Source: a virus | DNA: 41,494 nt | IMG/VR virus record: IMGVR_UViG_3300020213_000049 | Span: 1-41,494 of that record | Direction: 5' to 3' (one strand) | In this document: piece after piece, positions 12,204-36,942 of the stretch | Position numbering within the stretch: position 1 is the first letter of the stretch | Layout of the letters: each line of letters starts with the position of its first letter | Notes under the pieces: generated by a model | The model's database searches: none | What the model saw: only the letters and a program-made list of their open reading frames with translations | What the model was told of the DNA's origin: nothing | Position numbers and translations under genes: made by a program

Positions 12204-12509
12204 ATGATAGGAATTATATTACTAACGCTAGTAGGGGTAGGATTGTTACATTCCTTAGTTAGAGGAGCTAACACAAATAGTAATTCTCCTAGTTCCCCTT
12301 TTTCGAGACCTGGGAGCCTCAGTTCATCTACTGTCCCTTATAGTAGCCCTAGTTCATCAGCATATAGGGGGATAAATTACAAACCAGAAAAGGGTCGAAG
12401 TACATCCATATCTCCATCTCCGTCCACATCATTGTTATCATCCATCTCCACACGGTCTACTATCTCGTATTTTTATATTAACAAGCACCGTAAGGCACTC
12501 GAGAAATAG
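12204..12509 (+). CDS. Membrane-anchored Ser/Pro-rich protein (101 aa)
   Basis: Residues 1-19 (MIGIILLTLVGVGLLHSLV) form a signal anchor, followed by a Ser/Pro-rich stretch (residues 24-85, for example NSPSSPFSRPG and STSISPSPSTS) and a basic tail (YINKHRKALEK). The composition echoes the SPS repeats of the tail proteins but is less regular. It follows a TTATCCACT box and has TAAGGT 6 nt before the ATG. It could be a surface-exposed or envelope-interacting protein; function unknown. Confidence 0.6.
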   Translation: MIGIILLTLVGVGLLHSLVRGANTNSNSPSSPFSRPGSLSSSTVPYSSPSSSAYRGINYKPEKGRSTSISPSPSTSLLSSISTRSTISYFYINKHRKALEK

Positions 12510-16233: not shown

Positions 16234-16845
16234 ATGAAAAACAGCAACAAAGTACTATTGGACGCGGTGTCAGTGGGGCAGGAGTCTCTAGCTTTCAACG
16301 TGGAAGAATACGGCAGAGTTGGGTTCCAATTCCTTGCAGACGCTGTAACAAGCGGACAGGGCATCTTCACAGTTGATGGGACGATAGACGGTTCTACATG
16401 GATGAGAATAAACACGTTGATAGCCAACGTTTCAAATAGCAATTCTCAATCACTAACCAGAGTGGCAAGCGTGGTCTTGAGTACGTCGGTGAGCAGATCA
16501 TCTTCGGCTTCGATTTCTCCGTCAGCTTCAAGAAGCCCGTCGGCTTCAACATCTCCGTCTAACTCTCTTAGCCCGTCGATTTCTCCGTCAGCTTCAAGAA
16601 GCCCGTCGGCTTCAGCGTCACTTTCCCCGTCAGCGTCAGCCTCAGGGTCACCCTCGTCCTCGAGAAGCCCGTCGGCGTCGTTTTCGCCAAGTGCCAGCGT
16701 ATCGTTAAGCCCATCAATCCAAGCAGATATTACATCTTCTGCACTTGTATGGCTTGATCCGTTCCTTGCACTTAAGGCAGTACGAGTTGGATTAGTGATA
16801 AGTGGAGCTGGAAGGTATTCAGCCTTTGTACAGGTAACTGAATAG
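16234..16845 (+). CDS. Structural protein with an internal SPS mucin-like repeat (203 aa)
   Basis: Residues 1-80 form a beta-rich domain (EYGRVGFQFLADAVTSGQGIFTVDGTIDGSTWMRIN), residues 84-161 are SPSAS-type repeats, and residues 163-203 resume a beta domain (SSALVWLDPFLALKAVRVGLV). The flanking halves look like one common small phage structural fold whose middle has been replaced or extended by the repeat, so the low-complexity tract is an insertion into a loop. The repeat would project from the virion and offers dozens of Ser acceptors for O-linked sugars. Confidence 0.7.
   Translation: MKNSNKVLLDAVSVGQESLAFNVEEYGRVGFQFLADAVTSGQGIFTVDGTIDGSTWMRINTLIANVSNSNSQSLTRVASVVLSTSVSRSSSASISPSASRSPSASTSPSNSLSPSISPSASRSPSASASLSPSASASGSPSSSRSPSASFSPSASVSLSPSIQADITSSALVWLDPFLALKAVRVGLVISGAGRYSAFVQVTE
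16483..16716 (+). repeat. SPS repeat tract 1 (Ser-Pro-Ser-X-Ser units)
   Basis: GC-rich repetitive DNA of units such as CCGTCGGCTTC and AGAAGCCCGTC encoding SPSAS/SRSPS. Both TCN and AGY serine codons are used, so the protein pattern is better kept than the DNA pattern. Confidence 0.85.
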
Positions 16846-17755: not shown

Positions 17756-18655
17756 ATGTTAAGTGTTGTTATTCCTAGCAGATCAGAACAGTATCTTCAG
17801 CAAACAGTGGATGATTTACTTAAAAAGGCTACAGGAGAGATTGAAGTCATTGTATCATTAGACGGCTACTGGCCATCTCCAATGCTCAATGACGATAAAA
17901 GGGTACGTATCATCCATCAAGGTAAGATAGACGACAACAGGGGCATGAGAGGGGCTATAAACGCAGGTATGAGGATAGCCCAAGGTGACTATGTCATGAA
18001 ATGCGATGAACACACTCTCTGGGATGAAGGTTTTGACGCGAAGCTTATCAAGGATTGTGAGGAACATGACGTTGTTGTTCCAAGAAGATACAGACTAGAC
18101 CCCGAAAAGTGGGAAATAATCACAGACGGAAGAAATCCAATAGACTATATGTACCTAACGTATCCTTTCATGCGTCCGGGTGATAAGACGAATGGCTTAA
18201 GAGGGCAGGAGTGGAAGGAAAGATTCACAGCTAATAAGGATATTATGTATGACGAAAGCATGTCTACTCAAGGAAGTGCGTATTTCATGCGTAAAAGCCA
18301 CTGGGATGAGGTAATAAAGGAGATGGACGAGGTAAGTTATGGGCCATTTACTAGTGAGGCTCAAGAAATCGGACTTAAAACACAACTAAGCGGGGGTAGA
18401 TTGATGACAAACAAGAATACTTTTTATGCTCATTGGTGGAAGGGCAAGGCTGGGAAGAACTACAAGTTCACAAACGCTCAATACGACAAACATCAGGCAG
18501 AAACAGAGGCAGGGAGAGTGTATTCAATACAATACTGGCTCACCACAAAGGACTACAAGCATGATTTTATGTGGCTAATGGAGAAGTTCGACCCTGTACC
18601 CACATGGCCCGCGGATTGGAAATCGCTTATCACTAATGAAATAAACAAACTATGA
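17756..18655 (+). CDS. GT-A family glycosyltransferase (GT2/GT27-like, 299 aa)
   Basis: The N-terminal Rossmann-like nucleotide-sugar site is clear: LSVVIPSRSEQYLQQTVDDLL, EVIVSLDGYW, GMRGAINAGMRIAQGDYVMKCDEHTLW. CDEH (residues 83-86) takes the place of the metal-binding DxD/DxH motif. Later SMSTQGSAYFMRKSHW, EAQEIGLKTQLSGGRLMTNKNTFYAHWW parallels the acceptor/lid region of polypeptide GalNAc-transferases and of the enzyme at 21137. It probably transfers a sugar to a virion protein. It is the first gene of an ATGA-coupled cassette. Confidence 0.88.
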   Translation: MLSVVIPSRSEQYLQQTVDDLLKKATGEIEVIVSLDGYWPSPMLNDDKRVRIIHQGKIDDNRGMRGAINAGMRIAQGDYVMKCDEHTLWDEGFDAKLIKDCEEHDVVVPRRYRLDPEKWEIITDGRNPIDYMYLTYPFMRPGDKTNGLRGQEWKERFTANKDIMYDESMSTQGSAYFMRKSHWDEVIKEMDEVSYGPFTSEAQEIGLKTQLSGGRLMTNKNTFYAHWWKGKAGKNYKFTNAQYDKHQAETEAGRVYSIQYWLTTKDYKHDFMWLMEKFDPVPTWPADWKSLITNEINKL

Positions 18656-19188
18656 AAAACCGCATAGAACTCGCAAAACACTTCGCAGAGCTAGGCTTTA
18701 CCAAAGGTGTTGAGGTGGGAGTGTGTGACGGTATCTACTCTGAGAAGTTGATGCAGAACATCCCCGGACTAACATTGCACGGCATTGACCCATACACTGA
18801 ATATCACGGCTACCCGAAAGAACGTATCGAACGGAAAAGGGTAGAAGCAATAGAAAGATTGCGTAAGTATCCTAATTATACACTTGTAAGATTAAAAAGC
18901 TTGGAAGCTGTGAAGCATTTTGCAGATGGCTCGTTGGACTTCGTATTTATCGACGGTGCCCATGACTATAAATCCGTAAAAGAAGATATAAACGCATGGT
19001 ATCCGAAGGTTCGTAAGGGAGGAATATTGTCAGGGCATGACTACTATCAAGGCAAGAGCGGTGGAATGGGAGTAATTAAAGCAGTAGATGAGTTTATTGC
19101 AGAGCACAAACTAGAACTGCAAACAACAGAATGGGATATGGAAGCGTATGTTGATGACCGCCAGCCCGACTACTACGTGCAACTATGA
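18652..19188 (+). CDS. Class I SAM-dependent methyltransferase (Methyltransf_24-like, 178 aa)
   Basis: The SAM-binding motif EVGVCDG (21-27), GIDPY (44-48), the FIDGAHDYKSVKEDI motif (about 99-113) and KVRKGGILSGHDYY (119-132) identify the Methyltransf_24/TylF-like group, which commonly O-methylates sugars. In this context it may methylate a glycan attached to a virion protein. It overlaps the upstream glycosyltransferase and the downstream 19-codon ORF by ATGA junctions. Confidence 0.88.
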   Translation: MKNRIELAKHFAELGFTKGVEVGVCDGIYSEKLMQNIPGLTLHGIDPYTEYHGYPKERIERKRVEAIERLRKYPNYTLVRLKSLEAVKHFADGSLDFVFIDGAHDYKSVKEDINAWYPKVRKGGILSGHDYYQGKSGGMGVIKAVDEFIAEHKLELQTTEWDMEAYVDDRQPDYYVQL

Positions 19189-19244
19189 AAGAAGTTTTTG
19201 TTATGTTAGCAGTTTTATGGGTAATTATGTATTTAACAATATGA
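19185..19244 (+). CDS. 19-residue hydrophobic micro-protein between two methyltransferases
   Basis: MKEVFVMLAVLWVIMYLTI, ATGA-coupled at both ends (start 19185 overlaps the upstream stop; stop 19242-19244 overlaps the downstream ATG at 19241). It is a single hydrophobic helix after a charged start. It could be a membrane micro-peptide or simply a coupling device that carries ribosomes between the two genes. Confidence 0.5.
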   Translation: MKEVFVMLAVLWVIMYLTI

Positions 19245-19834
19245 CCACACTCAAATACCTTACAGATAAATACAACATCCCCTTGGAGTATATTGAAATA
19301 CCCAACATTGGACGTAAGGAACTCGCAGAGATGTTCCACGAGCTTGATTTTAAGCGTGGTGTTGAGATTGGTGTTGCAAACGGGGAATACTCCGAAGCTA
19401 TCATGGTGGCAAACCCTAGTATTGAGATGTACGGCGTAGACCCGTATGTTTCGTATGAAGGGTATAAGGACTATAAGCTCAAATCTACATTCACTAGAAT
19501 GGAGCAGGAGGCACAAAACAAGCTATGTAGGTATCAGACATACAAGTTCATTAAAAAGTTCAGCACAGAGGCTTCCAAGGGCTTTAATGATAGCTCCTTG
19601 GACTTTGTTTACATAGATGGAAACCACGAAGGACACGCAGTAAAGGAAGATATAGAAGCATGGACTCCAAAAGTACGTAAAGGCGGATTAGTAGCAGGGC
19701 ATGACTTCACAGAACAATTGCCATCACTACGGAAAGAAGTTATATCGTATTGTAAAAACACAGATAGGCAGTTATTTATTCTTGGTAAGGGATTGTATAG
19801 TGATGTAATTAGAAGTTGGTTTTTTGTAGTATGA
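19241..19834 (+). CDS. Second class I SAM-dependent methyltransferase (197 aa)
   Basis: I start at MTTLKYLTDKYNIP (ATG at 19241); an in-frame ATG at 19148 would overlap the previous gene extensively. Motifs mirror the upstream enzyme: GVEIGVANGEYSE, YGVDPY, DFVYIDGNHEGHAVKEDIEAW, KVRKGGLVAGHDF. The two are paralogues that arose by duplication or were acquired together. Likely a sugar O-methyltransferase, possibly acting at a different position. The next gene is ATGA-coupled. Confidence 0.87.
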   Translation: MTTLKYLTDKYNIPLEYIEIPNIGRKELAEMFHELDFKRGVEIGVANGEYSEAIMVANPSIEMYGVDPYVSYEGYKDYKLKSTFTRMEQEAQNKLCRYQTYKFIKKFSTEASKGFNDSSLDFVYIDGNHEGHAVKEDIEAWTPKVRKGGLVAGHDFTEQLPSLRKEVISYCKNTDRQLFILGKGLYSDVIRSWFFVV

Positions 19835-20463
19835 ACATAGCAGTATTTTCCGCCAACCTTGGGAACTTTGAGAAGCCCACTCATCATGTGGAACAATCTA
19901 CCCCTGCGGATTACTTCCTATTCAATGATGAGAACTTTCCGCCTAGATTTAACGCCATGACCCCCCGACTACAGGCACGGTTAGTAAAAATGTTTATGTA
20001 TCAGATGAAGCCCGGATACAATTACTACCTATGGATAGATTCGTCATGTATTTTAAGCCATAAGGATTCAATACAATGGTTTATGAATCACTTAGGAGAC
20101 GCTGATATGGCAGTATTCAAACACCCGCACAGAAACACAATAGGAGAAGAAGCAAAGTACATCCAGCACAGGATAGATATAAAAACAAGATATATAACGT
20201 CACGGTATGAGAATGAGATACTAGATGAACAGATGAATGAAATAAACGAACCTGGGCTACCCCTGTACGCTACAACATCATTCATTATGAGAAATACATA
20301 CGACATGCACAAACTAATGAAGGAATGGTGGTATGGAACATCAAGATATCATATTGTGGACCAGGTATGGTTGCCGTATGCTATTAAGAAATCTCAATGC
20401 AAAGTGAATGTCATACCAGACAACTTTATGAAATGTGATTATATAAAACCTGTAAGAGTATGA
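19831..20463 (+). CDS. Glycosyltransferase-like protein resembling DUF616/TOD1 (210 aa)
   Basis: Starts at MNIAVFSANLGNFEKP (ATG at 19831, ATGA-coupled). YNYYLWIDSSCILSHKDSI and DADMAVFKHPHRNTIGEEAKYI resemble the core of DUF616-type glycosyltransferases (W-I-D then H-P-x-R...EEA), with a possible metal-binding Asp in WIDSS. Its place among glycosyltransferases supports a sugar-transfer role; the family assignment is from pattern recall and should be confirmed. Confidence 0.6.
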   Translation: MNIAVFSANLGNFEKPTHHVEQSTPADYFLFNDENFPPRFNAMTPRLQARLVKMFMYQMKPGYNYYLWIDSSCILSHKDSIQWFMNHLGDADMAVFKHPHRNTIGEEAKYIQHRIDIKTRYITSRYENEILDEQMNEINEPGLPLYATTSFIMRNTYDMHKLMKEWWYGTSRYHIVDQVWLPYAIKKSQCKVNVIPDNFMKCDYIKPVRV

Positions 20464-21140
20464 GCGACTTGACAATAGTTTACTATACCGCGAACAGAAT
20501 ACCTGCTGAATTTTCCAATGCGGTACGGAAGAACATCACAGAGGTATCTCAAGGCATTCCGATTATTAGTGTATCTCATCATCCTATTAGTTTTGGCAAG
20601 AATATAGTAGTAGAAGACGAACCGTCACATGTAAACATCTACAGAGATGCTTTATTAGGCGTGAAAGAAGCCACAACAAAGTACGTTTCGCTTTGTGAGG
20701 ACGATGTTTTATATTCAAAGGAACATTTCACATACCGCCCTCGGAGTAGAGTGTTTGGGTATGACCTTGCAGTGTGGAACATATTCACATGGGGAGAACC
20801 AGTTTTCCACAGGAAAGAAACAGGCAGGCGTAACATGTATAGCCTTATTTGTGAACGGAATATATTTATCGAAGCAATAGAGGAGAGATTCAGAAAATAC
20901 CCCGATGATTCAACCATTGATTTAGGAGTGTGGGCGGAGCCTTCGAAGTATGAGCGACAACTAGGCGTAACAGTTCAAGATTGGGAAGCGTATTATAGTT
21001 CAGTACCGCTTATTGCGTTCTCACATCAAACAGCTTTATCGTACAAAAACCTTGGCACAAGAAAAAGACAAGGGCATATCAAAGCACTGAACATCCCTAC
21101 TTGGGGGAGTGCTGATTCAGTGTTAAAATTATACAAATGA
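20460..21140 (+). CDS. Glycosyltransferase-like protein with an EDD motif (226 aa)
   Basis: Opens with TIVYYTANRIPAEFSNAVRK and has CEDDVLYSKEHFTYRP at residues 79-94, a likely nucleotide-sugar metal site. It is clearly paralogous to the C-terminal domain (about 340-557) of the next protein, which has ILFYTTNRLPIKFAKKV and EEDVLYSKEHFDFTP. It is ATGA-coupled on both sides. It probably adds a sugar, but no named family is recognised. Confidence 0.6.
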   Translation: MSDLTIVYYTANRIPAEFSNAVRKNITEVSQGIPIISVSHHPISFGKNIVVEDEPSHVNIYRDALLGVKEATTKYVSLCEDDVLYSKEHFTYRPRSRVFGYDLAVWNIFTWGEPVFHRKETGRRNMYSLICERNIFIEAIEERFRKYPDDSTIDLGVWAEPSKYERQLGVTVQDWEAYYSSVPLIAFSHQTALSYKNLGTRKRQGHIKALNIPTWGSADSVLKLYK

Positions 21141-22810
21141 AATACTCGCTAGCAATTCTTTTACCTAGTAGAAACGAGGAGTTCTTATCTAAGACTATCC
21201 AAGACCTTGTGGATAACACAAGCGAGCAGACAGAAATACTAATTGGGTTAGATGGGAAATGGGCTGATCCGGGCGTGATAGACCATCCGCGAGTGACTAT
21301 TGTTTATTACCCCGAATCTATCGGGCAAAGAGCCATGACGAGAAGGCTCGCAAGGATAACGAATGCAAAGTACATCGCCAAAACAGACGCTCATTGTGCG
21401 TTTGATAAAGACTTTGATGTAAAGATGTTGGAAGCATTTAAGGAAACAGGCGACGATGTAACCATGGTACCTATTATGAGGAACCTGCATGTTTTTGACT
21501 GGGTGTGCAAAACTTGTGGAATGCGTTCATATCAAGGTCCGGAACCTACCCAATGCAGAAACGAGGAGTGTGCAAATGACCCGCAGAAGTTTGAGAAGGA
21601 TATTGTGTGGATACCTAAAACAAGCCCACAAAGTACGGCGTATAGATTTAACAAAGAGCTACGATTTAAGTACTTTCCAGAACTCCGCAGACGACAAACA
21701 GGAGACTTAGTAGAAACTATGTCACTCCAAGGCTCATTCTTTATGATGACGAAAGAAAGATACTTTGATTTAGATATAGACGATGAAAGTTTAGGGTCAT
21801 GGGGAATGCAAGGCTCAAGCGTAGCCCTTAAAACATGGCTATCTGGTGGGAGAGTAATTTGTAACACAAGAACATGGTACGCACATTTGTTTCGAACTCA
21901 ACACGGGTTTTCATTCCCATACCCACAGGACGGAAAGGGACAAGCACGGGCTATAAAGACAGTTCAGGATGTGTTCATGAATAATAAGTGGGAGAAACAA
22001 ACAAGACCGCTATCGTGGCTATTAGAGAAGTTTTGGGAACCATTGAAAGAAGTAGGAGACAAAGAATCACGATGGGAAGCAACGGACTTGGAGGCATTAA
22101 AGAAAGTATCATTACAAAAAAGTTTACAAACATTTGTAAACTCTGAAAACACTCCAAGCAAAGGCATTTTATTCTACACAACAAACAGGCTTCCTATTAA
22201 GTTTGCCAAGAAAGTACAAAACAGTCTCAAAGGGATAGGTTTACCAATTACATCTGTATCTCTTAAGCCTATGAACTTCGGAACTAACATACACGTTCCA
22301 TTACAACCTAGTAAGTGGGCGTATTTCACTCAAATACTTATAGGGCTTGAGAGTATGAAAGAGGATATTATATTTTTCGCAGAAGAAGATGTTCTCTATT
22401 CAAAAGAGCATTTTGATTTTACGCCACAAGAAAAAGATACTTTTTACTATGACTTGAATTGGTGGAAAGTTTGGTCTGATGGACTTGCTGCAAGGTGGGA
22501 TGCTCGTCAAGTATCCATGCTTTGCGCTTACAGAAAACCACTTATAGATTTTTATAGGGATAAAATAAAGGAAATAGAAAAAAATGGGTTTAATAGAAGT
22601 TACGAACCGTTTGGTAAGTGCGTTGATTGGAAATCAGAACGTTCAAGTATCGATGTAAGGCATAAAGGCAATCTAACTCGTAGCCATCGAAAGCCAGAAG
22701 ATTTTAGGGATAAGTCTTCATGTATAAACTGGGAACAGGGTGGATTTTCTGAAATACCAGGATGGGATGAGAATGAACTACACAATATCTACAAACATGG
22801 TACACTATAG
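21137..22810 (+). CDS. Two-domain glycosyltransferase: GT27-like GalNAc-transferase-type domain plus a second GT-like domain (557 aa)
   Basis: Residues 1-300: LAILLPSRNEEFLSKTIQDL, EILIGLDGKW, YIAKTDAHCAFDKDF (DAHC at 84-87), then MSLQGSFFMMTK, SWGMQGSSVALKTWLSGGRV (221-240) and WYAHLFR. DxHC, WGG-like and H.FR blocks occur in this order in mucin-type polypeptide GalNAc-transferases (GT27). A four-Cys insert (CKTCGM...CRNEEC, 124-145) looks like a zinc ribbon. Residues 340-557 form a second domain paralogous to the 226-residue protein upstream. Likely the key enzyme attaching the first sugar to Ser residues; this remains inference. Confidence 0.85.
   Translation: MKYSLAILLPSRNEEFLSKTIQDLVDNTSEQTEILIGLDGKWADPGVIDHPRVTIVYYPESIGQRAMTRRLARITNAKYIAKTDAHCAFDKDFDVKMLEAFKETGDDVTMVPIMRNLHVFDWVCKTCGMRSYQGPEPTQCRNEECANDPQKFEKDIVWIPKTSPQSTAYRFNKELRFKYFPELRRRQTGDLVETMSLQGSFFMMTKERYFDLDIDDESLGSWGMQGSSVALKTWLSGGRVICNTRTWYAHLFRTQHGFSFPYPQDGKGQARAIKTVQDVFMNNKWEKQTRPLSWLLEKFWEPLKEVGDKESRWEATDLEALKKVSLQKSLQTFVNSENTPSKGILFYTTNRLPIKFAKKVQNSLKGIGLPITSVSLKPMNFGTNIHVPLQPSKWAYFTQILIGLESMKEDIIFFAEEDVLYSKEHFDFTPQEKDTFYYDLNWWKVWSDGLAARWDARQVSMLCAYRKPLIDFYRDKIKEIEKNGFNRSYEPFGKCVDWKSERSSIDVRHKGNLTRSHRKPEDFRDKSSCINWEQGGFSEIPGWDENELHNIYKHGTL
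22801..22806 (+). promoter_or_regulatory. Leaderless promoter -10 of the HNH endonuclease
   Basis: TACACT, 6 nt (ATAGAA) before the GTG start at 22813, and lying inside the end of the upstream glycosyltransferase gene. Confidence 0.55.
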
Positions 22811-22812
22811 AA

Positions 22813-23361
22813 GTGCCATTCCAGAAAGGAAACAAATTAGGAGCAAAAAATAAAGGACTAATTCCTTGGAATAAGGGAAAGCCTCATATGGTTGGCATAC
22901 TAAATCCTATGTGGGGGAGGAAGCATACAGCAGAAGCAAAGAAAAAAGTCAGTGAGGCTAATAAGGGTAGGATACCATCACTAGAAGTTAGGAGAAAAAT
23001 GAGTCTAGCTAGTAAGGGAAAGCCAAAATCAAAGGAGCATAGAGAAAATATAAGGAAGTCCGCTAACAGAGGAGACAAGCATTATGCATGGAAAGGTGAC
23101 AACGTAGGATATGCGTCATTGCATAGGTGGGTGCAAAAACACAGGGGGGTAGCTAATAAATGTGAACAATGTGAATCTGCAATCAAAGTAGAATGGGCTA
23201 ATATATCAAGAGAATATAAAAGAGAACAAAACGATTATATGCAACTATGCCATAGTTGCCATATGCAATATGATAGTATTTCTGATAAAGTCTGGGCTAC
23301 ACGAAAGAAATTATATGGATATTCTGGCAAGAGGGCTATTACATTGACGGGAAGATTGTAG
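22813..23361 (+). CDS. HNH homing-type endonuclease with NUMOD3 repeats (182 aa)
   Basis: Starts with GTG at 22813. The N-terminal half contains NUMOD3 DNA-binding repeats (GRKHTAEAKKKVSEANKG, SLEVRRKMSLASKGKPKSKEHRENI). The C-terminal half is an HNH-like nuclease with CEQC...CHSCH zinc ligands. Such enzymes are usually free-standing selfish elements in phage genomes. It has its own leaderless promoter (TACACT, 6 nt, GTG) and is followed by a terminator, consistent with an inserted cassette splitting the glycosylation genes from the tail genes. Confidence 0.9.
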   Translation: MPFQKGNKLGAKNKGLIPWNKGKPHMVGILNPMWGRKHTAEAKKKVSEANKGRIPSLEVRRKMSLASKGKPKSKEHRENIRKSANRGDKHYAWKGDNVGYASLHRWVQKHRGVANKCEQCESAIKVEWANISREYKREQNDYMQLCHSCHMQYDSISDKVWATRKKLYGYSGKRAITLTGRL

Positions 23362-23390
23362 TATAGTCAAAGAAAGGGACTGATGTAACT

Positions 23391-23416
23391 GACGGACCAT
23401 AGTGTCCGTCTTTTTT
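23391..23416 (+). terminator. Intrinsic terminator after the HNH gene
   Basis: GACGGAC (23391..23397), loop CATAGT, GTCCGTC (23404..23410), then six T residues. It lies just before the tail-gene start at 23434. Confidence 0.9.
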
Positions 23417-23433
23417 AATTTTTAACTAACTAT

Positions 23434-23937
23434 ATGGCTTCACGATACAGAATTTATAACTCCCCAATGCCTACAACGGCAGAGATAGCAGCCGTCACTA
23501 CAGGCACGGTAATAAAAACATTGCTTCAATTGAGACCATTTAATACTTGTAAGATAGTTTCTTGGGGAATCTCATTTGATGGTGCAGCGGCAGCTACGCC
23601 AATTAAAGTTGCGCTACTAGACACTGGTACGGTGTTTGGGACTGTCACAGCTTCTGTGGATGCTGACATTGTAAAAATGGACAGCGTGGAAGACGCAGTA
23701 GCTTCCATAGCAGGGCTTACTCTTGGAACAACGGCAACGGGGTACACTTGTACGTCAGAAGGAGCTATAACAGCTACTCGCGTATTTGACGCTCAGTTTA
23801 TTGCTCCTACAAACCAATATGTTTACCAATTTCCACTTGGTAGAGAAGCAAAATGCATTATAGGAAATGCTGTAAGAATCCGTGTAACTGCAGGAGCGGC
23901 TGTGAATGCAATTTGCTTCATAGAAGTTGAGTTCTAA
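23434..23937 (+). CDS. Tail or baseplate-type structural protein (167 aa)
   Basis: Beta-rich and Ala/Thr/Val-rich (TVIKTLLQLRPFNTCKIVSWGISFDGAAAATPIKVALLDTG), with a C-terminal RIRVTAGAAVNAICFIEVEF strand, typical of small phage structural proteins. First gene after the HNH terminator. No specific role assigned. Confidence 0.65.
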   Translation: MASRYRIYNSPMPTTAEIAAVTTGTVIKTLLQLRPFNTCKIVSWGISFDGAAAATPIKVALLDTGTVFGTVTASVDADIVKMDSVEDAVASIAGLTLGTTATGYTCTSEGAITATRVFDAQFIAPTNQYVYQFPLGREAKCIIGNAVRIRVTAGAAVNAICFIEVEF

Positions 23938-23942
23938 AAACC

Positions 23943-25088
23943 ATGCCAAATCGCTTTTTCGTAAACGGCGGTGTCGATAACAACTGGGGCACTATTGGCA
24001 ACTGGTCACTCACTAGCGGTGGTGCTGGAGGACTATCAGTTCCAACTACCGCGGATGATGTGTTTTTGGACGCGTCATCGCCGAACTGCACCGTAAACGC
24101 CAGCGACCGTGTTGCGCTAACGTTTAATTCTACTGGCTATACAAATACGGTGACTAACACGTTCCGTATCACTGTTTCAGGGGCTATTACAATAGGAGCA
24201 GGGACTCTGTGGGCAGGGAATGAATACATCCACGGTAATGTGACTGCAACTCACACCTCCAACGGGAACACTCTCCGCAATTTCTGGTTATCAGGTGTTG
24301 CTACGCATACCCTCGCGGATAATTTCACCGTTGGTAATTTTCGCTTTGGCAATGGTGGAAACTCAACAGTAGTTAACGCCAACCAAATCAGCATGACGGG
24401 CAACCTCGACCTTAGCCAAGCATCGTCAGGGATTTTATCGGGAACTACCACATTGATTATGACGGGGACGGGTTCGGTTCTGCTGATGAGTTCTACAGGC
24501 ACCATCCGAAACAACCTCACATTTAATACGTCTGGTACAATTACAATCGGCACAGGAACCTTCCGCTATAGCGGTGGAACCATGACATACACCGCTGGTA
24601 CGGTGAATGCGTCCAACGCCACTTTAACCATAACTACAAACTCCACGACATTGGACGTGAGTGCTCTTACATGGGGGGCGGTCACTTTGACAGGGATTCT
24701 CACCCTTACACTCACGACCGATTTGCGTACTTCTGGGCTAACGAGTTTGGGAAGCAGCACTTCCGCTCTCGTTCTCAACGGCTCAAAGATTTTCGCAGGC
24801 GGCGGGATGGCAAGACCCGCAACTACTGGCGGAGTTTCAGGCACGACAGAAATTGTCTTAAGCGGAACAGGAACTGTAAACGGAACAGCGACTACAGGAG
24901 TGATACTTAATAAAATCACTATCGACGCAGGAGCGGGAACTATCACAGTACTGGACTCCAACACTCAGCCAGTGAGAATCGCATTTGGACAGTTGAGATA
25001 TGTTTCAGGTACGGTGATTACGGATAACGGAACGTGGACGGCAGGAATATCTGCACGTTCAGTCATTATCAAGGGTGGGTATTACTAG
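23943..25088 (+). CDS. Beta-solenoid tail fibre / adhesin-like protein (381 aa)
   Basis: Opens FFVNGGVDNNWGTIGNWSLTSGG, with repeated short beta-strand segments rich in Thr, Gly and Asn (ITVSGAITIGAGTLW, TLIMTGTGSVLLMSSTGTI, GTITIGTGTFRYSGGTMTY). This is the pattern of a filamentous beta-helix adhesin, ending in GTWTAGISARSVIIKGGYY. It is likely a receptor-binding or fibre component. The next gene, a pure SPS-repeat protein, starts 4 bases downstream. Confidence 0.75.
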   Translation: MPNRFFVNGGVDNNWGTIGNWSLTSGGAGGLSVPTTADDVFLDASSPNCTVNASDRVALTFNSTGYTNTVTNTFRITVSGAITIGAGTLWAGNEYIHGNVTATHTSNGNTLRNFWLSGVATHTLADNFTVGNFRFGNGGNSTVVNANQISMTGNLDLSQASSGILSGTTTLIMTGTGSVLLMSSTGTIRNNLTFNTSGTITIGTGTFRYSGGTMTYTAGTVNASNATLTITTNSTTLDVSALTWGAVTLTGILTLTLTTDLRTSGLTSLGSSTSALVLNGSKIFAGGGMARPATTGGVSGTTEIVLSGTGTVNGTATTGVILNKITIDAGAGTITVLDSNTQPVRIAFGQLRYVSGTVITDNGTWTAGISARSVIIKGGYY

Positions 25089-25091
25089 CCT

Positions 25092-25871
25092 ATGGCAAGG
25101 CTAGGGCATTGGGGGATATACAGACCTCTTATTAAAGGTCAGGTAGGTTCTTCTGGCTCTAGTATTTCGCCGTCTTCCTCGGTTAGCCCGTCGGCTTCGC
25201 AATCTCCTTCAAGCTCAGACAGCCCAAGTATCAGCCCGTCCGCCTCAATTAGCCCGTCTTCGTCAATTTCTGCCTCAGTAAGTCCTAGCTCCTCGATTAG
25301 CCCGTCAGTCAGCCCCTCAGCGAGCGTTAGCCCTAGCTCGAGCGTTTCGCCTTCAGTTAGCCCCTCGAGCAGTATTTCAGCCTCTGTTAGCCCTAGTGCG
25401 AGCGTGTCCCCCTCTGCGAGTGTCAGCCCCTCAAGTAGCTCCTCAGCGTCAAGAAGTCCGTCTAGTAGCGACTCGCCGTCGATTTCGCCTAGTGCGAGCG
25501 TGTCACCGTCTTCTTCGATGTCTCCTAGCTCTAGTGTTTCCGCCTCAATCAGCCCCTCTGCTTCAATTTCTCCATCTTCGTCTGCCTCTGCCTCAGTTAG
25601 TCCGAGTGCGTCAATCTCTCCTAGTTCTAGTGCCTCAGCATCAGTCTCGCCGTCTTCCTCGATTAGCCCGAGTAGCTCTGTGAGCTCGAGCGTGAGCCCC
25701 TCGTCCTCAATTTCTCCGTCTTCCTCGATTAGCCCGTCTTCGTCTGCAAGCCCGTCATCCTCAGCCTCTGCGTCTGTTGGCGTTACAGCTATTATGCACG
25801 GGAGAGTTCCACTAGCGGTGAATTCTAGCAATAGAATTCCACTTATAGATATTTATCCAGGTAGAAATTAA
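25092..25871 (+). CDS. Mucin-like SPS-repeat fibre protein (259 aa)
   Basis: Residues 1-18 (MARLGHWGIYRPLIKGQVGS) are non-repetitive; residues about 19-228 are almost entirely Ser-Pro-Ser-X-Ser repeats; the last about 31 residues end in GRVPLAVNSSNRIPLIDI. That C-terminal motif recurs in the next protein (DRVSLAVNPSNRVPLLNI), so it may be a capping or trimerisation tip. With roughly 80 percent Ser/Pro-rich repeat and no globular core it resembles a mucin stalk, and it is the best candidate acceptor for the glycosyltransferases. Confidence 0.8.
   Translation: MARLGHWGIYRPLIKGQVGSSGSSISPSSSVSPSASQSPSSSDSPSISPSASISPSSSISASVSPSSSISPSVSPSASVSPSSSVSPSVSPSSSISASVSPSASVSPSASVSPSSSSSASRSPSSSDSPSISPSASVSPSSSMSPSSSVSASISPSASISPSSSASASVSPSASISPSSSASASVSPSSSISPSSSVSSSVSPSSSISPSSSISPSSSASPSSSASASVGVTAIMHGRVPLAVNSSNRIPLIDIYPGRN
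25146..25775 (+). repeat. SPS repeat tract 2, longest in the genome
   Basis: About 630 bases of repetitive GC-rich DNA encoding SPSSSVSPSAS-type units. Serine is written by both TCN and AGY codons, and units vary in order, so there is no simple tandem period. Expect assembly collapse and strain-to-strain length variation here. Confidence 0.9.
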
Positions 25872-25874
25872 CCT

Positions 25875-27332
25875 ATGCCCAAACTATACTTATTTGATAC
25901 ACAGTGGTTCGAGGAGAATCAAAAATACGTCTTATTTTTCATAAACACAAAAATTGGAAGATGGTTTTTTAGGATTAACGGCAAGCGAAGTAATGTAGGC
26001 AATAGAGTTGTAATCAAAGTAATGCCTAATTACATTACTTGGAAAGATGAAGTATATTCGTCTGAGTTTAGGGTACATAACAAGTATTCTAATCGTCTTT
26101 TTTATGGATTGTACCCTCTTTGGTGGTGTTTTCATCAATGGGATACATTTATTGCAAATGTTTTTGTTCCAGAGTGGAATTTAGGATTTGATACCTTAAC
26201 GGTATACCCTAATCCACACACAGAAACCACAAGCGTGGACGGACAAGCAGGAGAAAATATCGTTGCTGGAACATGGGCTAATCTGGTAGCGGCAGCAGGA
26301 GATGAAAACGATGATAGTGCAACATCTATATCGTTTAGAGTAGAAAATACTGCTGCACAATTTCAAAAGCTGTTGCGTATGTTTATGCTCTTTGATACTT
26401 CCGCACTTACTGCAAGTGCAAATATCATATCTGCAACGCTTTCTTTATATGGGATAAATAAACAAGATGATAACGGGAACACACCAGACTTAAACATATA
26501 TTCATCAACCCCTGCAACAAATACAGCAATAGTGAGTGGTGATTATGCACAGGTAGGTTCAACGGCATTTTCAACTGCTATTACATACGCAGGATGGTCT
26601 ACGACTGGATATAACGACTTCGTTTTGAATGCAAGTGGTATATCGAATATAAGTAAAACAGGAATATCAAAGTTTAGTGGAAGAAACGCAAAATTTGACG
26701 TAGCAAATTCAGCTCCAACTACAGGGGCAGGTGTTCAAGTAATGAGGATAGGGGCAAGCTCCGCAGATGAAGCTGGCACAAGCCAAGACCCAAAGCTAGT
26801 TGTTATATATGGCGGTATCTCACCTAGTGCATCTCGCTCTCCGAGTGCCTCAGTCTCTCCGTCTGCCTCTCGCTCTCCGTCGTCGAGTGCCAGTGCCTCG
26901 CTTTCGCCTAGCTCTAGTATTTCTCCGTCAATCTCGCCGAGTGCTAGCCGTAGCCCGTCTTCGTCTGTTTCGCCCTCAATTTCGCCGTCTTCGTCAATTT
27001 CGCCGTCAATTTCGCCGTCCGCGTCTGTTTCGCCGTCAATTTCGCCGTCCGCGTCTGTTTCGCCCTCTTCGTCTGTTTCGCCGTCTGCGTCATCTTCTGA
27101 CTCACGCTCTCCCTCGGCTTCTGCGAGTCCGTCGATTTCTCCGAGTGCCTCTCGCTCGCCCTCTGCCTCGATTTCGCCCTCGGCGTCAATTAGCCCGTCT
27201 TCCTCGAGTTCACGTTCCGTAAGCCCGTCATCATCGCCGTCTGCAAGCATTTCACCTATTGTGTATGATAGAGTTTCCCTTGCGGTAAACCCTAGTAATA
27301 GGGTGCCACTACTAAATATTGGAGTAGACTAG
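25875..27332 (+). CDS. DNRLRE-domain tail protein with C-terminal SPS stalk (485 aa)
   Basis: Residues 1-105 form an aromatic N-terminal domain (YVLFFINTKIGRWFFRINGK, LYPLWWCFHQWDTF) of unknown type. Residues about 115-310 resemble a DNRLRE-type beta-sandwich (TWANLVAAAGDENDDSATSI, LLRMFMLFDTSALTASANII...). Residues 314-458 are SPS repeats, and the last about 27 residues share the RVSLAVNPSNRVPLL cap with the preceding protein. DNRLRE domains occur in surface adhesins. Likely a tail fibre presenting a glycosylatable stalk. Confidence 0.75.
   Translation: MPKLYLFDTQWFEENQKYVLFFINTKIGRWFFRINGKRSNVGNRVVIKVMPNYITWKDEVYSSEFRVHNKYSNRLFYGLYPLWWCFHQWDTFIANVFVPEWNLGFDTLTVYPNPHTETTSVDGQAGENIVAGTWANLVAAAGDENDDSATSISFRVENTAAQFQKLLRMFMLFDTSALTASANIISATLSLYGINKQDDNGNTPDLNIYSSTPATNTAIVSGDYAQVGSTAFSTAITYAGWSTTGYNDFVLNASGISNISKTGISKFSGRNAKFDVANSAPTTGAGVQVMRIGASSADEAGTSQDPKLVVIYGGISPSASRSPSASVSPSASRSPSSSASASLSPSSSISPSISPSASRSPSSSVSPSISPSSSISPSISPSASVSPSISPSASVSPSSSVSPSASSSDSRSPSASASPSISPSASRSPSASISPSASISPSSSSSRSVSPSSSPSASISPIVYDRVSLAVNPSNRVPLLNIGVD
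26814..27248 (+). repeat. SPS repeat tract 3
   Basis: GC-rich repeats, with near-exact TTTCGCCGTC units around 26970..27090, encoding SISPSASVSPSIS-type sequence. The near-exact part is a possible site of recent expansion or slippage. Confidence 0.88.
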
Positions 27333-27344
27333 TATACTATATAT
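27333..27344 (+). promoter_or_regulatory. Leaderless promoter -10 before the next tail gene
   Basis: TATACT (27333..27338), 6 nt, ATG at 27345. Confidence 0.6.
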
Positions 27345-28952
27345 ATGAAATCTTCCATTATTCTTGACCAAATAAACGGACTTTCGGATTCTAGGTTTTC
27401 TGGTGTCGCAGGTTCAGTTGCAGAATGTATAGGATTAGACCTCCACAGCACCCCCGGACTTACCAAGGTACGCCAAAAACTTACGAGACTATCAATTACT
27501 TTCTCGCCCTCGCTCTCTCCCTCATCCTCGCAGTCAATTAGCCCGTCTTCCTCTCGCTCGCCTTCTGCCTCGCAGTCTCTCTCGCCTTCATCCTCGCAGT
27601 CACCTAGTGCCTCGGCTTCAGGAAGCCCCTCTGCGTCACGTTCACCATCAGCCTCACGTTCGCCTTCTGCCTCAGTGAGTGCCTCCGTAGGCACGCCTGT
27701 TGAAGTGGATGAGTTTATAAAAGTGGCAGTAGCTTGTTCCAATGGGTATTCGTTCTGGTTTTCATCCACTAGCGGGAAGATATGGGCTGTTTTAGGCTCT
27801 ACGGTGACACTTGCATACACTACATCTCCAGGGGCAGGTACCGCGGGATGTTCAGGGGCTATAGAATACAACGGGTACATTTATTGGGCGACACAAAGCC
27901 GATTGCATAGAATAACAATCGCCAACGCAGACGGACAATGGATAAACGCCGAATACAACTGGGCTACCTTTACAAAAACAGACGCAGACTTTCACCCAAT
28001 GGCGATACAAGACCTTTCACTATTCATTGGAGACGGTAATTTAGTCGCACTAGTAGATGAGCTTGGTGTTTTTAATGGAAATGTACTAAACATTAACACT
28101 CCATACAGAATTAAGTGCATGATAAATTATGAATTTGACATTCTCCTTGGAACGTACGTTGCGGACACAGTGAACAAGACGCAGATTATTCGTTGGGATA
28201 CTGTATCTCCTTCGTGGAACACATCGGATACCATAGAAGAAGTTGGAATAAACGCCTTCATTCGAGAAGACAATACATTGTTTGTAAACGCAGGAAGAGC
28301 AGGGAATATCTACTACTACAACGGAGAACAGCTTTTACAATCAAAGAGAGTACCAGGGGAATACTCGAGTACAGCATATGGGTATGTTCACCCGAACGCA
28401 GTAGGAAACTTTATGGGGCAACCGGTATTTGGGTTTTCAAACGGATCCGGAAACCCCGCAAAGCAAGGAGTGTATTCATTTGGCTCATACTCAAAGGATT
28501 ACGCAAAGAAACTCGACCTATCATTCCCTATCTCTCAAGGAGTAACCACTGGACTGGAAATTGGGGCTATTCTAGTTATGGACTTTGACATATATGTTTC
28601 ATGGAAACATGGCTCTGTATATGGAATTGACAAAATAGACTACACCGCTAAATACACAGGGGCGTATTTCGAAACTATGAAGCTTTTTCAAAAAAATAGA
28701 GATACACTGAAAACACTAGGAAGCGTAATAGCTCTTTATGACTCAATGCCATCGGGATGTGGTTTTACCATTTCATATAACGTAAACAACGCAGGATATG
28801 TAGCTATGACTGACTATGACGACACAATTCTACAAGCAATCAAAGCGGAATTATCTGTACCAAGTGTGGCTTCGCTACAACTAAAAGTAGGCTTTGATGT
28901 ATCTAGTAATAACGCACCAACGCTTGAATCATTAGCCGTAAGCATGAGATAA
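27345..28952 (+). CDS. Large tail protein with an SPS insert and beta-propeller-like body (535 aa)
   Basis: Residues 1-52 contain GLSDSRFSGVAGSVAECIGLDLH, residues 54-115 are SPS repeats, and the rest is a repeating beta-strand protein (SFWFSSTSGKIWAVLG, EYNGYIYWATQSRLHRITI, NTLFVNAGRAGNIYYYNGE) resembling a beta-propeller tail protein. The N-terminal segment with DLHSTPGLTKV also occurs at the start of many phage tail proteins of this type. The SPS tract sits between an N-terminal attachment segment and the propeller, as a flexible linker. Confidence 0.7.
   Translation: MKSSIILDQINGLSDSRFSGVAGSVAECIGLDLHSTPGLTKVRQKLTRLSITFSPSLSPSSSQSISPSSSRSPSASQSLSPSSSQSPSASASGSPSASRSPSASRSPSASVSASVGTPVEVDEFIKVAVACSNGYSFWFSSTSGKIWAVLGSTVTLAYTTSPGAGTAGCSGAIEYNGYIYWATQSRLHRITIANADGQWINAEYNWATFTKTDADFHPMAIQDLSLFIGDGNLVALVDELGVFNGNVLNINTPYRIKCMINYEFDILLGTYVADTVNKTQIIRWDTVSPSWNTSDTIEEVGINAFIREDNTLFVNAGRAGNIYYYNGEQLLQSKRVPGEYSSTAYGYVHPNAVGNFMGQPVFGFSNGSGNPAKQGVYSFGSYSKDYAKKLDLSFPISQGVTTGLEIGAILVMDFDIYVSWKHGSVYGIDKIDYTAKYTGAYFETMKLFQKNRDTLKTLGSVIALYDSMPSGCGFTISYNVNNAGYVAMTDYDDTILQAIKAELSVPSVASLQLKVGFDVSSNNAPTLESLAVSMR
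27504..27689 (+). repeat. SPS repeat tract 4
   Basis: GC-rich repeats (units CGCCTTCTGCCTC, CCTCGCAGTC) encoding SPSSSQSPSAS and SRSPSAS. Confidence 0.88.
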
Positions 28953-36690: not shown

Positions 36691-36942
36691 ATGGACTTAA
36701 AATCTTGGCTGAAACACATCCTCGAAGGCATGGTATTTGAACCTTCTCTAATAACTATCGAAGAAAAAACAGATGAGATGGGTATACTTTTTACTGTATC
36801 AACCACAAATGTAAGAGATGCCGGTATCCTTATAGGGCAAAAAGGAGAGCATGCGAATGCTTTAAGAATACTTTTACGGACGGTTGGCCACTTAGCTGGT
36901 GTAAAAGCTAGCCTTAAGATAACTACGATATGTTCCCACTGA
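36691..36942 (+). CDS. KhpA-like KH-domain RNA-binding protein (83 aa)
   Basis: A single KH domain in the order of bacterial KhpA (YlqC): EEKTDEMGILFTVSTTN, then DAGILIGQKGEHANALRILL, with the GxxG loop as IGQKG at residues 48-52. KhpA proteins bind small RNAs and mRNA; phage copies are uncommon. It begins a lysis-type group (M23-like, holin). It could act on the structured RNA leaders described in this genome, but there is no direct evidence. Confidence 0.85.
   Translation: MDLKSWLKHILEGMVFEPSLITIEEKTDEMGILFTVSTTNVRDAGILIGQKGEHANALRILLRTVGHLAGVKASLKITTICSH

Follow-up and report, generated by a model that had tools for sequence, protein, structure and literature searches.

The virus record IMGVR_UViG_3300020213_000049 of IMG/VR (41.5 kb, analyzed in its full length of 41,494 nucleotides and referred to below as the window) contains a terminase gene, a major head protein gene (PHROG match) and a late operon; a portal-like protein is encoded, by position, between terminase and major head protein. 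The window is that of a tailed phage. Its late operon comprises a cassette of six open reading frames (ORFs; 17756-22810) for glycosyltransferase-like proteins and methyltransferases, and four late genes around it contain tracts in which every second residue is Ser (Ser-Pro-Ser-X-Ser, hereafter SPS). As judged from sequences and predicted structures, this operon probably encodes a cytosolic O-glycosylation module related to the GT27 polypeptide N-acetylgalactosamine (GalNAc) transferases, together with its own substrates, the Ser residues of the SPS stalks. The pairing of enzyme and SPS recurs in dozens of further phages and on the chromosomes of some ultra-small Patescibacteria.

SPS tracts

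An earlier note on this DNA, made from the sequence alone, had described Ser-Pro-Ser-X-Ser tracts in four late proteins and a cassette of two GT-A glycosyltransferases, two methyltransferases and two glycosyltransferase-like proteins. The tracts were found within a few codons of where it had placed them, and the cassette holds two GT-A enzymes with a D-x-H motif, two Methyltransf_24 proteins, one TOD1/MUCI70-like protein and one protein with an 'EDD' motif (Table 1). The four tracts are strict, uninterrupted period-2 Ser arrays, all on the + strand, with 281 Ser in total. The longest other period-2 Ser array in the window measures 11 amino acids (aa), and none of 11 aa or more arose when the codons of the window were shuffled 50 times.

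Regarding the genes that carry the tracts, a 96-100% identical copy of the 16234 product with the same tract is present at locus L006. The C-terminus of the 25092 product is similar to that of the 25875 product, and the N-terminal part of the latter has homologues at five loci (L053, L042, L348, L020 and L032), each with adjoining SPS. In the 27345 product the tract is an insert that is absent from the homologues L046 (45%), L413 (40%) and L066, which continue through the site, while distant homologues carry SPS at the equivalent place (L022, L027, L029, L033, L038, L011, L295 and L312). Because some homologues are without the insert and others have SPS there, the tract can be regarded as a loop module that is gained or lost outside the fold, and it is presumably exposed on the virion. 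A short ORF after the portal-like gene (12204-12509), with a hydrophobic N-terminal stretch and a Ser/Pro-rich tail, may encode a further small SPS-type protein.

Relationship of the glycosyltransferases to GT27

In Foldseek searches of the PDB with AlphaFold models, all 50 listed matches of the 17756 product were GT27 polypeptide GalNAc-transferases, as were 49 of the 50 listed for the 21137 product, the one other being K4 chondroitin polymerase at rank 38. TM-scores were low for the 21137 product, as is to be expected with a single domain of its two aligned. A phmmer search of the PDB with the same protein yielded GALNT2 as the best match (E 1.8e-6), along with T10, T1, T7 and others, and a profile of 30 of its homologues (A1) matched GALNT1 best (5e-10). 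A second profile, built from 34 homologues of the 17756 product (A2), aligned with GT27 chains over residues 4-254, which is the whole catalytic domain, and with the best GT2 chains over about the first 90 residues; most GT2 chains matched in the first part alone.

Residues D84, H86 and H250 of the 21137 product are invariant in A1 and are aligned with the metal site of GT27 (GALNT2/T1). In GalNAc-T2 the Mn-binding D-x-H and second His are residues 224, 226 and 359. In the 17756 family, D84 and H226 are invariant and H86 is nearly so. By these tests the catalytic domain of the window enzymes is nearer to GT27 than to GT2, and the D-x-H...H metal residues are kept. Fold, profile and motif thus support the assignment of both predicted enzymes as GT27-like. 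They are named 'GT27-like' rather than GT27 because the lectin domain of the animal enzymes is missing and because alpha-GalNAc transfer from uridine diphosphate (UDP)-GalNAc would need an assay.

Co-occurrence of enzyme and repeats

Relatives of the 21137 product were found on 58 virus contigs, and in 49 of these the stretch examined contains a strict SPS array; the remaining nine are short or partial contigs or cut loci. In the other direction, a GT27-like enzyme is encoded by 44 of 49 SPS-bearing virus records, searched whole, and by none of 49 control records (Fisher p 2.5e-22). The SPS records had been chosen by DNA patterns for the arrays alone, ignoring the enzyme. The first two, short patterns matched mainly antisense or (SP)n simple repeats, and a stricter pattern that included Ala gave 102 true arrays in 112 new loci. 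As controls, 50 records of similar size were taken; their sole match, G043, belongs to the SPS set and was removed. Methyltransf_24 was found in 37 of the 49 SPS records and in three of the 49 controls, and any Glycos_transf_2 domain in eight of the controls. All tracts in enzyme-bearing loci (145/145) share the strand of the enzyme, at a median distance of 1.25 kb.

The enzyme tree is deep, and the structural genes in most contigs are not recognizably akin to those of the window. One terminase family is shared by 26 SPS records out of the 49, so at least half of them are clearly tailed phages. Among the records, G047 (loci L412 and L413), distantly related to the window's phage, has an SPS ORF of 621 aa and no GT27-like cassette; domains of GAPDH, nitroreductase and peptide deformylase are encoded there as well.

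The association between repeat and enzyme is strong, not absolute, and several observations weigh against the glycosylation of SPS by the cassette. The records were not dereplicated, so the counts are partly non-independent. Five of the 49 SPS records (G012, G014, G016, G037 and G047) lack a GT27-like enzyme; G016 encodes another Glycos_transf_2 protein and G047 a Gly_transf_sug protein, and for G012, G014 (26 kb) and G037 no glycosyltransferase family is among the Pfam matches listed (25 of 30 families for the pool of G012 and G016). The window enzymes gave no Pfam lectin match for the C-terminal ricin-type domain of animal GT27, the 21137 product having an EDD domain in its place. An annotated phage collection contained no relative of the 21137 product and two matches to the 17756 product, both weak and partial. 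Finally, that the SPS proteins are part of the virion is suggested by gene position and, for the 27345 product, also by conserved phage context.

The proposal of the earlier note that the cassette glycosylates the SPS stalks is nevertheless supported by these models and sequence comparisons: its suggested comparison of both enzymes with GT27 and GT2 came out for GT27 in structures and profiles alike, and the co-occurrence that it expected across related contigs was found. Its further expectation, that phages with SPS repeats would not lack glycosyltransferases altogether, failed marginally, in three of 49 records (one a 26-kb fragment), among the Pfam matches listed. Absent from that note were the fusion structure of the 21137 product, the connection to Patescibacteria and the nature of the tract as a loop insert.

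It is improbable that the SPS tracts are glycosylated by other enzymes, of the host or unlinked, and that the targets of the cassette are other proteins of the virion, for instance the capsid. Mycobacteriophage glycosyltransferases do act on capsid and tail-tube proteins, according to passages of PMC12363180 (citing Freeman et al. 2023), and the SPS phages without a GT27-like enzyme, three to five among the 49, would fit such a scheme. However, a capsid target would not couple the enzyme to SPS, and the enzyme family is absent from every control of similar size.

Selection on the Ser register

All six Ser codons are in bulk use across 387 tracts, and all six are used in the window, too, so the pattern is maintained at the protein level. 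Single breaks of the Ser register inside intact arrays were Thr (45), Gly (22), Val (5), Pro (1) and Ala (0). At the alternate positions Pro and Ala are the most frequent residues, and each is one base change away from the TCN codons, which account for about two thirds of Ser. As the breaks are mostly Thr and almost never Pro or Ala despite this one-base access, the hydroxyl is under selection; keeping it would be a requirement of an O-linked acceptor. That SPS might be a repeat at the DNA level or an artefact of the reading frame was ruled out by the use of six Ser codons, the shared strand of tracts and enzyme, and the substitutions in the register.

These data also bear on the possibility, to which we give little credence, that the cassette builds or alters a polysaccharide or O-antigen on the host surface, for superinfection exclusion or for serotype conversion, and that the SPS tracts are unmodified flexible linkers. 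The GT-2 superfamily mostly acts on polysaccharide or lipid, which counts in favor of it. O-antigen nucleotide-sugar genes are, moreover, reported in groundwater Patescibacteria phages in the passages available of PMC12911398. Yet the cassette is placed in the late operon beside virion genes and on the strand of the tracts, the top folds are GT27 and not GT2, and a hydroxyl selected at the register position is not needed in an unmodified linker.

Occurrence in Patescibacteria and host of the phage

A scan of bacterial genomes (one per species) with profile A1 yielded 34 loci, at least 29 of them from Patescibacteria, one from a Planctomycetota bin and four from bacteria not assigned to a lineage. 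The lineages with the enzyme include Woesebacteria, Levybacteria, Zambryskibacteria, WWE3 and Saccharimonadales, among others. In a direct sample of the phylum of one Patescibacteria match, the enzyme was present in six of 380 genomes (starting genome included), and it is thus rare and scattered there; in the phylum of the Planctomycetota bin it was present in one of 294 genomes, the starting genome alone.

Some of the genome loci on small contigs may be phage. Others lie within contigs of 95-744 kb and comprise giant SPS ORFs of 907-2615 aa with the cassette adjoining. Their flanks look cellular, with TatC in four of five, LemA, CorA, and dockerin and cohesin domains. Eight of the 34 genome loci contain TatC, which was not found in any viral locus searched; it adjoins the cassette and giant SPS ORFs in L422 (3189-3980), L432 (19719-20483), L442 (19069-19800) and L444 (300-1067), and also in L416, L420, L433 and L447. 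In L419, L422, L432, L442 and L444, bacterial ORFs as long as 2615 aa contain unbroken period-2 Ser arrays of up to 1935 residues. The five giant SPS ORFs examined showed no predicted membrane span and no obvious signal peptide. Judging by the chromosomal copies, giant SPS proteins may be produced in the same way in some Patescibacteria.

In the enzyme tree, virus and genome copies are interleaved, and supported branches force at least seven switches between them; the window's copy groups with L414 (a Microgenomates contig) and L009 (a virus contig). Exchange of the enzyme between phage and host, in either direction, would be the simplest reading of this tree, and the host of the window's phage is most likely a Patescibacterium. 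We tentatively propose, as a possibility somewhat short of an even chance, that the whole module (GT27-like enzymes, EDD proteins, methyltransferases and period-2 Ser substrates) is exchanged among Patescibacteria and the phages that infect them, giving virions and some host cells a mucin-like coat of the same kind, which might aid mimicry or adhesion in episymbiotic life. In this reading the module would be a prokaryotic counterpart of mucin glycosylation in animals, and perhaps distantly related to it.

Hardly probable at all is that the glycosyltransferases act on bases of the phage DNA, by glucosylation or hypermodification, to escape restriction, with the SPS link as a by-product of the late operon: DNA is a frequent target of phage glycosyltransferases in passages of PMC12619734 (citing the DNA-hypermodifying enzymes of Pyle et al. 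2024) and two DNA-methyltransferase-like genes were recognized by eye in the window (4844 and 38377), but the nearest folds are protein-acting GT27 enzymes, no base-hydroxymethylating gene was spotted by eye in the window's translations, the enzyme follows the SPS repeats across diverged phages, and Patescibacteria chromosomes with the same cassette beside giant SPS genes would not be predicted.

Proposed mode of action

In the proposed glycosylation of SPS, the tracts, whose sequence places a hydroxyl at every other residue, would protrude from virion proteins as loops or stalks. Virions are assembled in the cytoplasm, where soluble GT-A enzymes can draw on host nucleotide sugars, and there the 17756 product, the N-terminal domain of the 21137 product, or both would move a sugar from the nucleotide-sugar onto SPS Ser. 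The EDD domains and the TOD1/MUCI70-like protein might then lengthen the glycan, and, as gene association suggests, the two Methyltransf_24 enzymes might O-methylate it. The virion would thereby bear a mucin-like brush that could serve in shielding or in sticking to surfaces or lectins.

Gene content of the cassette and its surroundings

The cassette is located between the first SPS tract and the remaining three, and its genes are linked by ATGA overlaps at 18652/18655, 19831/19834, 20460/20463 and 21137/21140. The N-terminal half of the 21137 product is akin to the 17756 product and its C-terminal half to the 20460 product. For the EDD domain, no Pfam family and, by profile search, no PDB relative was found. 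The PHROG label 'DNA methyltransferase' for the Methyltransf_24 genes was not adopted. No clear Shine-Dalgarno motif was seen upstream of the start codons of the cassette and SPS genes. The homing-endonuclease-like gene directly after the cassette could help it to spread. At 36691-36942 the window encodes a small KH-domain-like (KhpA-like) RNA-binding protein, as judged by eye.

Table 1. Genes of the cassette and SPS-bearing late genes in the window (SAM, S-adenosylmethionine; pLDDT, predicted local distance difference test)
Feature	Position	Strand	Remarks
Virion-type gene (candidate)	16234..16845	+	SPS tract 16480-16716, 79 aa, 42 Ser, flanked by N-terminal and C-terminal parts
Predicted GT27-like GT-A glycosyltransferase	17756..18655	+	Pfam Glycos_transf_2; DEH at residues 84-86, His226; AlphaFold model pLDDT 90
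Methyltransf_24 SAM methyltransferase, candidate sugar O-methyltransferase	18652..19188	+	Pfam
Second Methyltransf_24 methyltransferase	19241..19834	+	Pfam; listed ORF start 19148, ATG 19241 probably the start
TOD1/MUCI70-type glycosyltransferase-like protein	19831..20463	+	Pfam PF04765 (TOD1_MUCI70), E 3e-7; listed start TTG 19816, ATG 19831 (in ATGA) more likely
Stand-alone 'EDD'-motif protein	20460..21140	+	37% identical to C-terminal half of 21137 product; probable second glycosyltransferase type
Fusion of predicted GT27-like domain (residues 1 to about 335) and EDD domain	21137..22810	+	Pfam Glycos_transf_2; DAH at residues 84-86, His250; model pLDDT 89
NUMOD3/HNH homing-endonuclease-like gene	22813-23361		Directly after the cassette
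SPS stalk protein (candidate)	25092..25871	+	Tract 25161-25775, 205 aa, 123 Ser
Late gene product, N-terminal half folded	25875..27332	+	SPS tract 26820-27254, 145 aa, 82 Ser
Conserved tail-type protein with SPS loop insert	27345..28952	+	Insert 27504-27686, 61 aa, 34 Ser, after about residue 53

Significance and comparison with known systems

The nearest solved relatives of the enzymes, GT27, start mucin glycosylation in animals. If the proposed glycosylation is true, that system, treated as eukaryotic, would extend to prokaryotic viruses. Enzyme and substrate, probably soluble and cytosolic, would form a pair amenable to testing in E. coli, and their joint occurrence readily marks phages of uncultured Patescibacteria, a group of little-known biology. 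In the open-access papers searched, none was found that describes SPS repeats or GT27-like enzymes in phages or Patescibacteria, or the two together in any bacteria. Nucleotide-sugar genes and lectins are reported for Patescibacteria phages in PMC12911398, and the module does not appear in the passages of it that were searched.

Glycosylation of virion proteins by enzymes of the same phage is described for mycobacteriophages (PMC12363180, PMC12619734), among them Che8 (gp110), Corndog (gp38) and Myrna (Freeman et al. 2023, as cited in PMC12363180 and PMC12894461). That system is similar in that the glycosyltransferases are phage-encoded and a methyltransferase is also tied to the process; in the window, such genes are present and associated with SPS proteins. 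It differs in its targets, which in the same passages are capsid and tail-tube proteins and not dedicated period-2 Ser repeats. No relation of the mycobacteriophage enzymes to GT27 was found in those parts of the literature, and no homology comparison was made.

SdgA and SdgB of Staphylococcus add N-acetylglucosamine stepwise to Ser-Asp repeats (PMC3794999). There, too, genes for repeat-specific glycosyltransferases adjoin those of Ser-repeat proteins, an arrangement shared by the module of the window with its closely spaced enzyme and tracts on one strand. In contrast, the staphylococcal repeat is SD and not SPSxS, and it belongs to cell-wall proteins and not to virions. The enzymes are also of another family (nearest TarM, PMC3794999) than the Glycos_transf_2 proteins described here, as judged from their descriptions.

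Compared with GT27 of animals and Toxoplasma (e.g., human GalNAc-T2), the window enzymes are about 14-18% identical, contain an EDD domain instead of the ricin-type lectin domain and occur in phages and bacteria; GT27 acceptors are Ser or Thr, whereas the SPS tracts are almost pure Ser. Both groups are alike in the catalytic fold, in the D-x-H motif with a distant metal-site His, in the sequence profile and in a Ser/Pro-rich repetitive acceptor, a proposed one in the case of the window.

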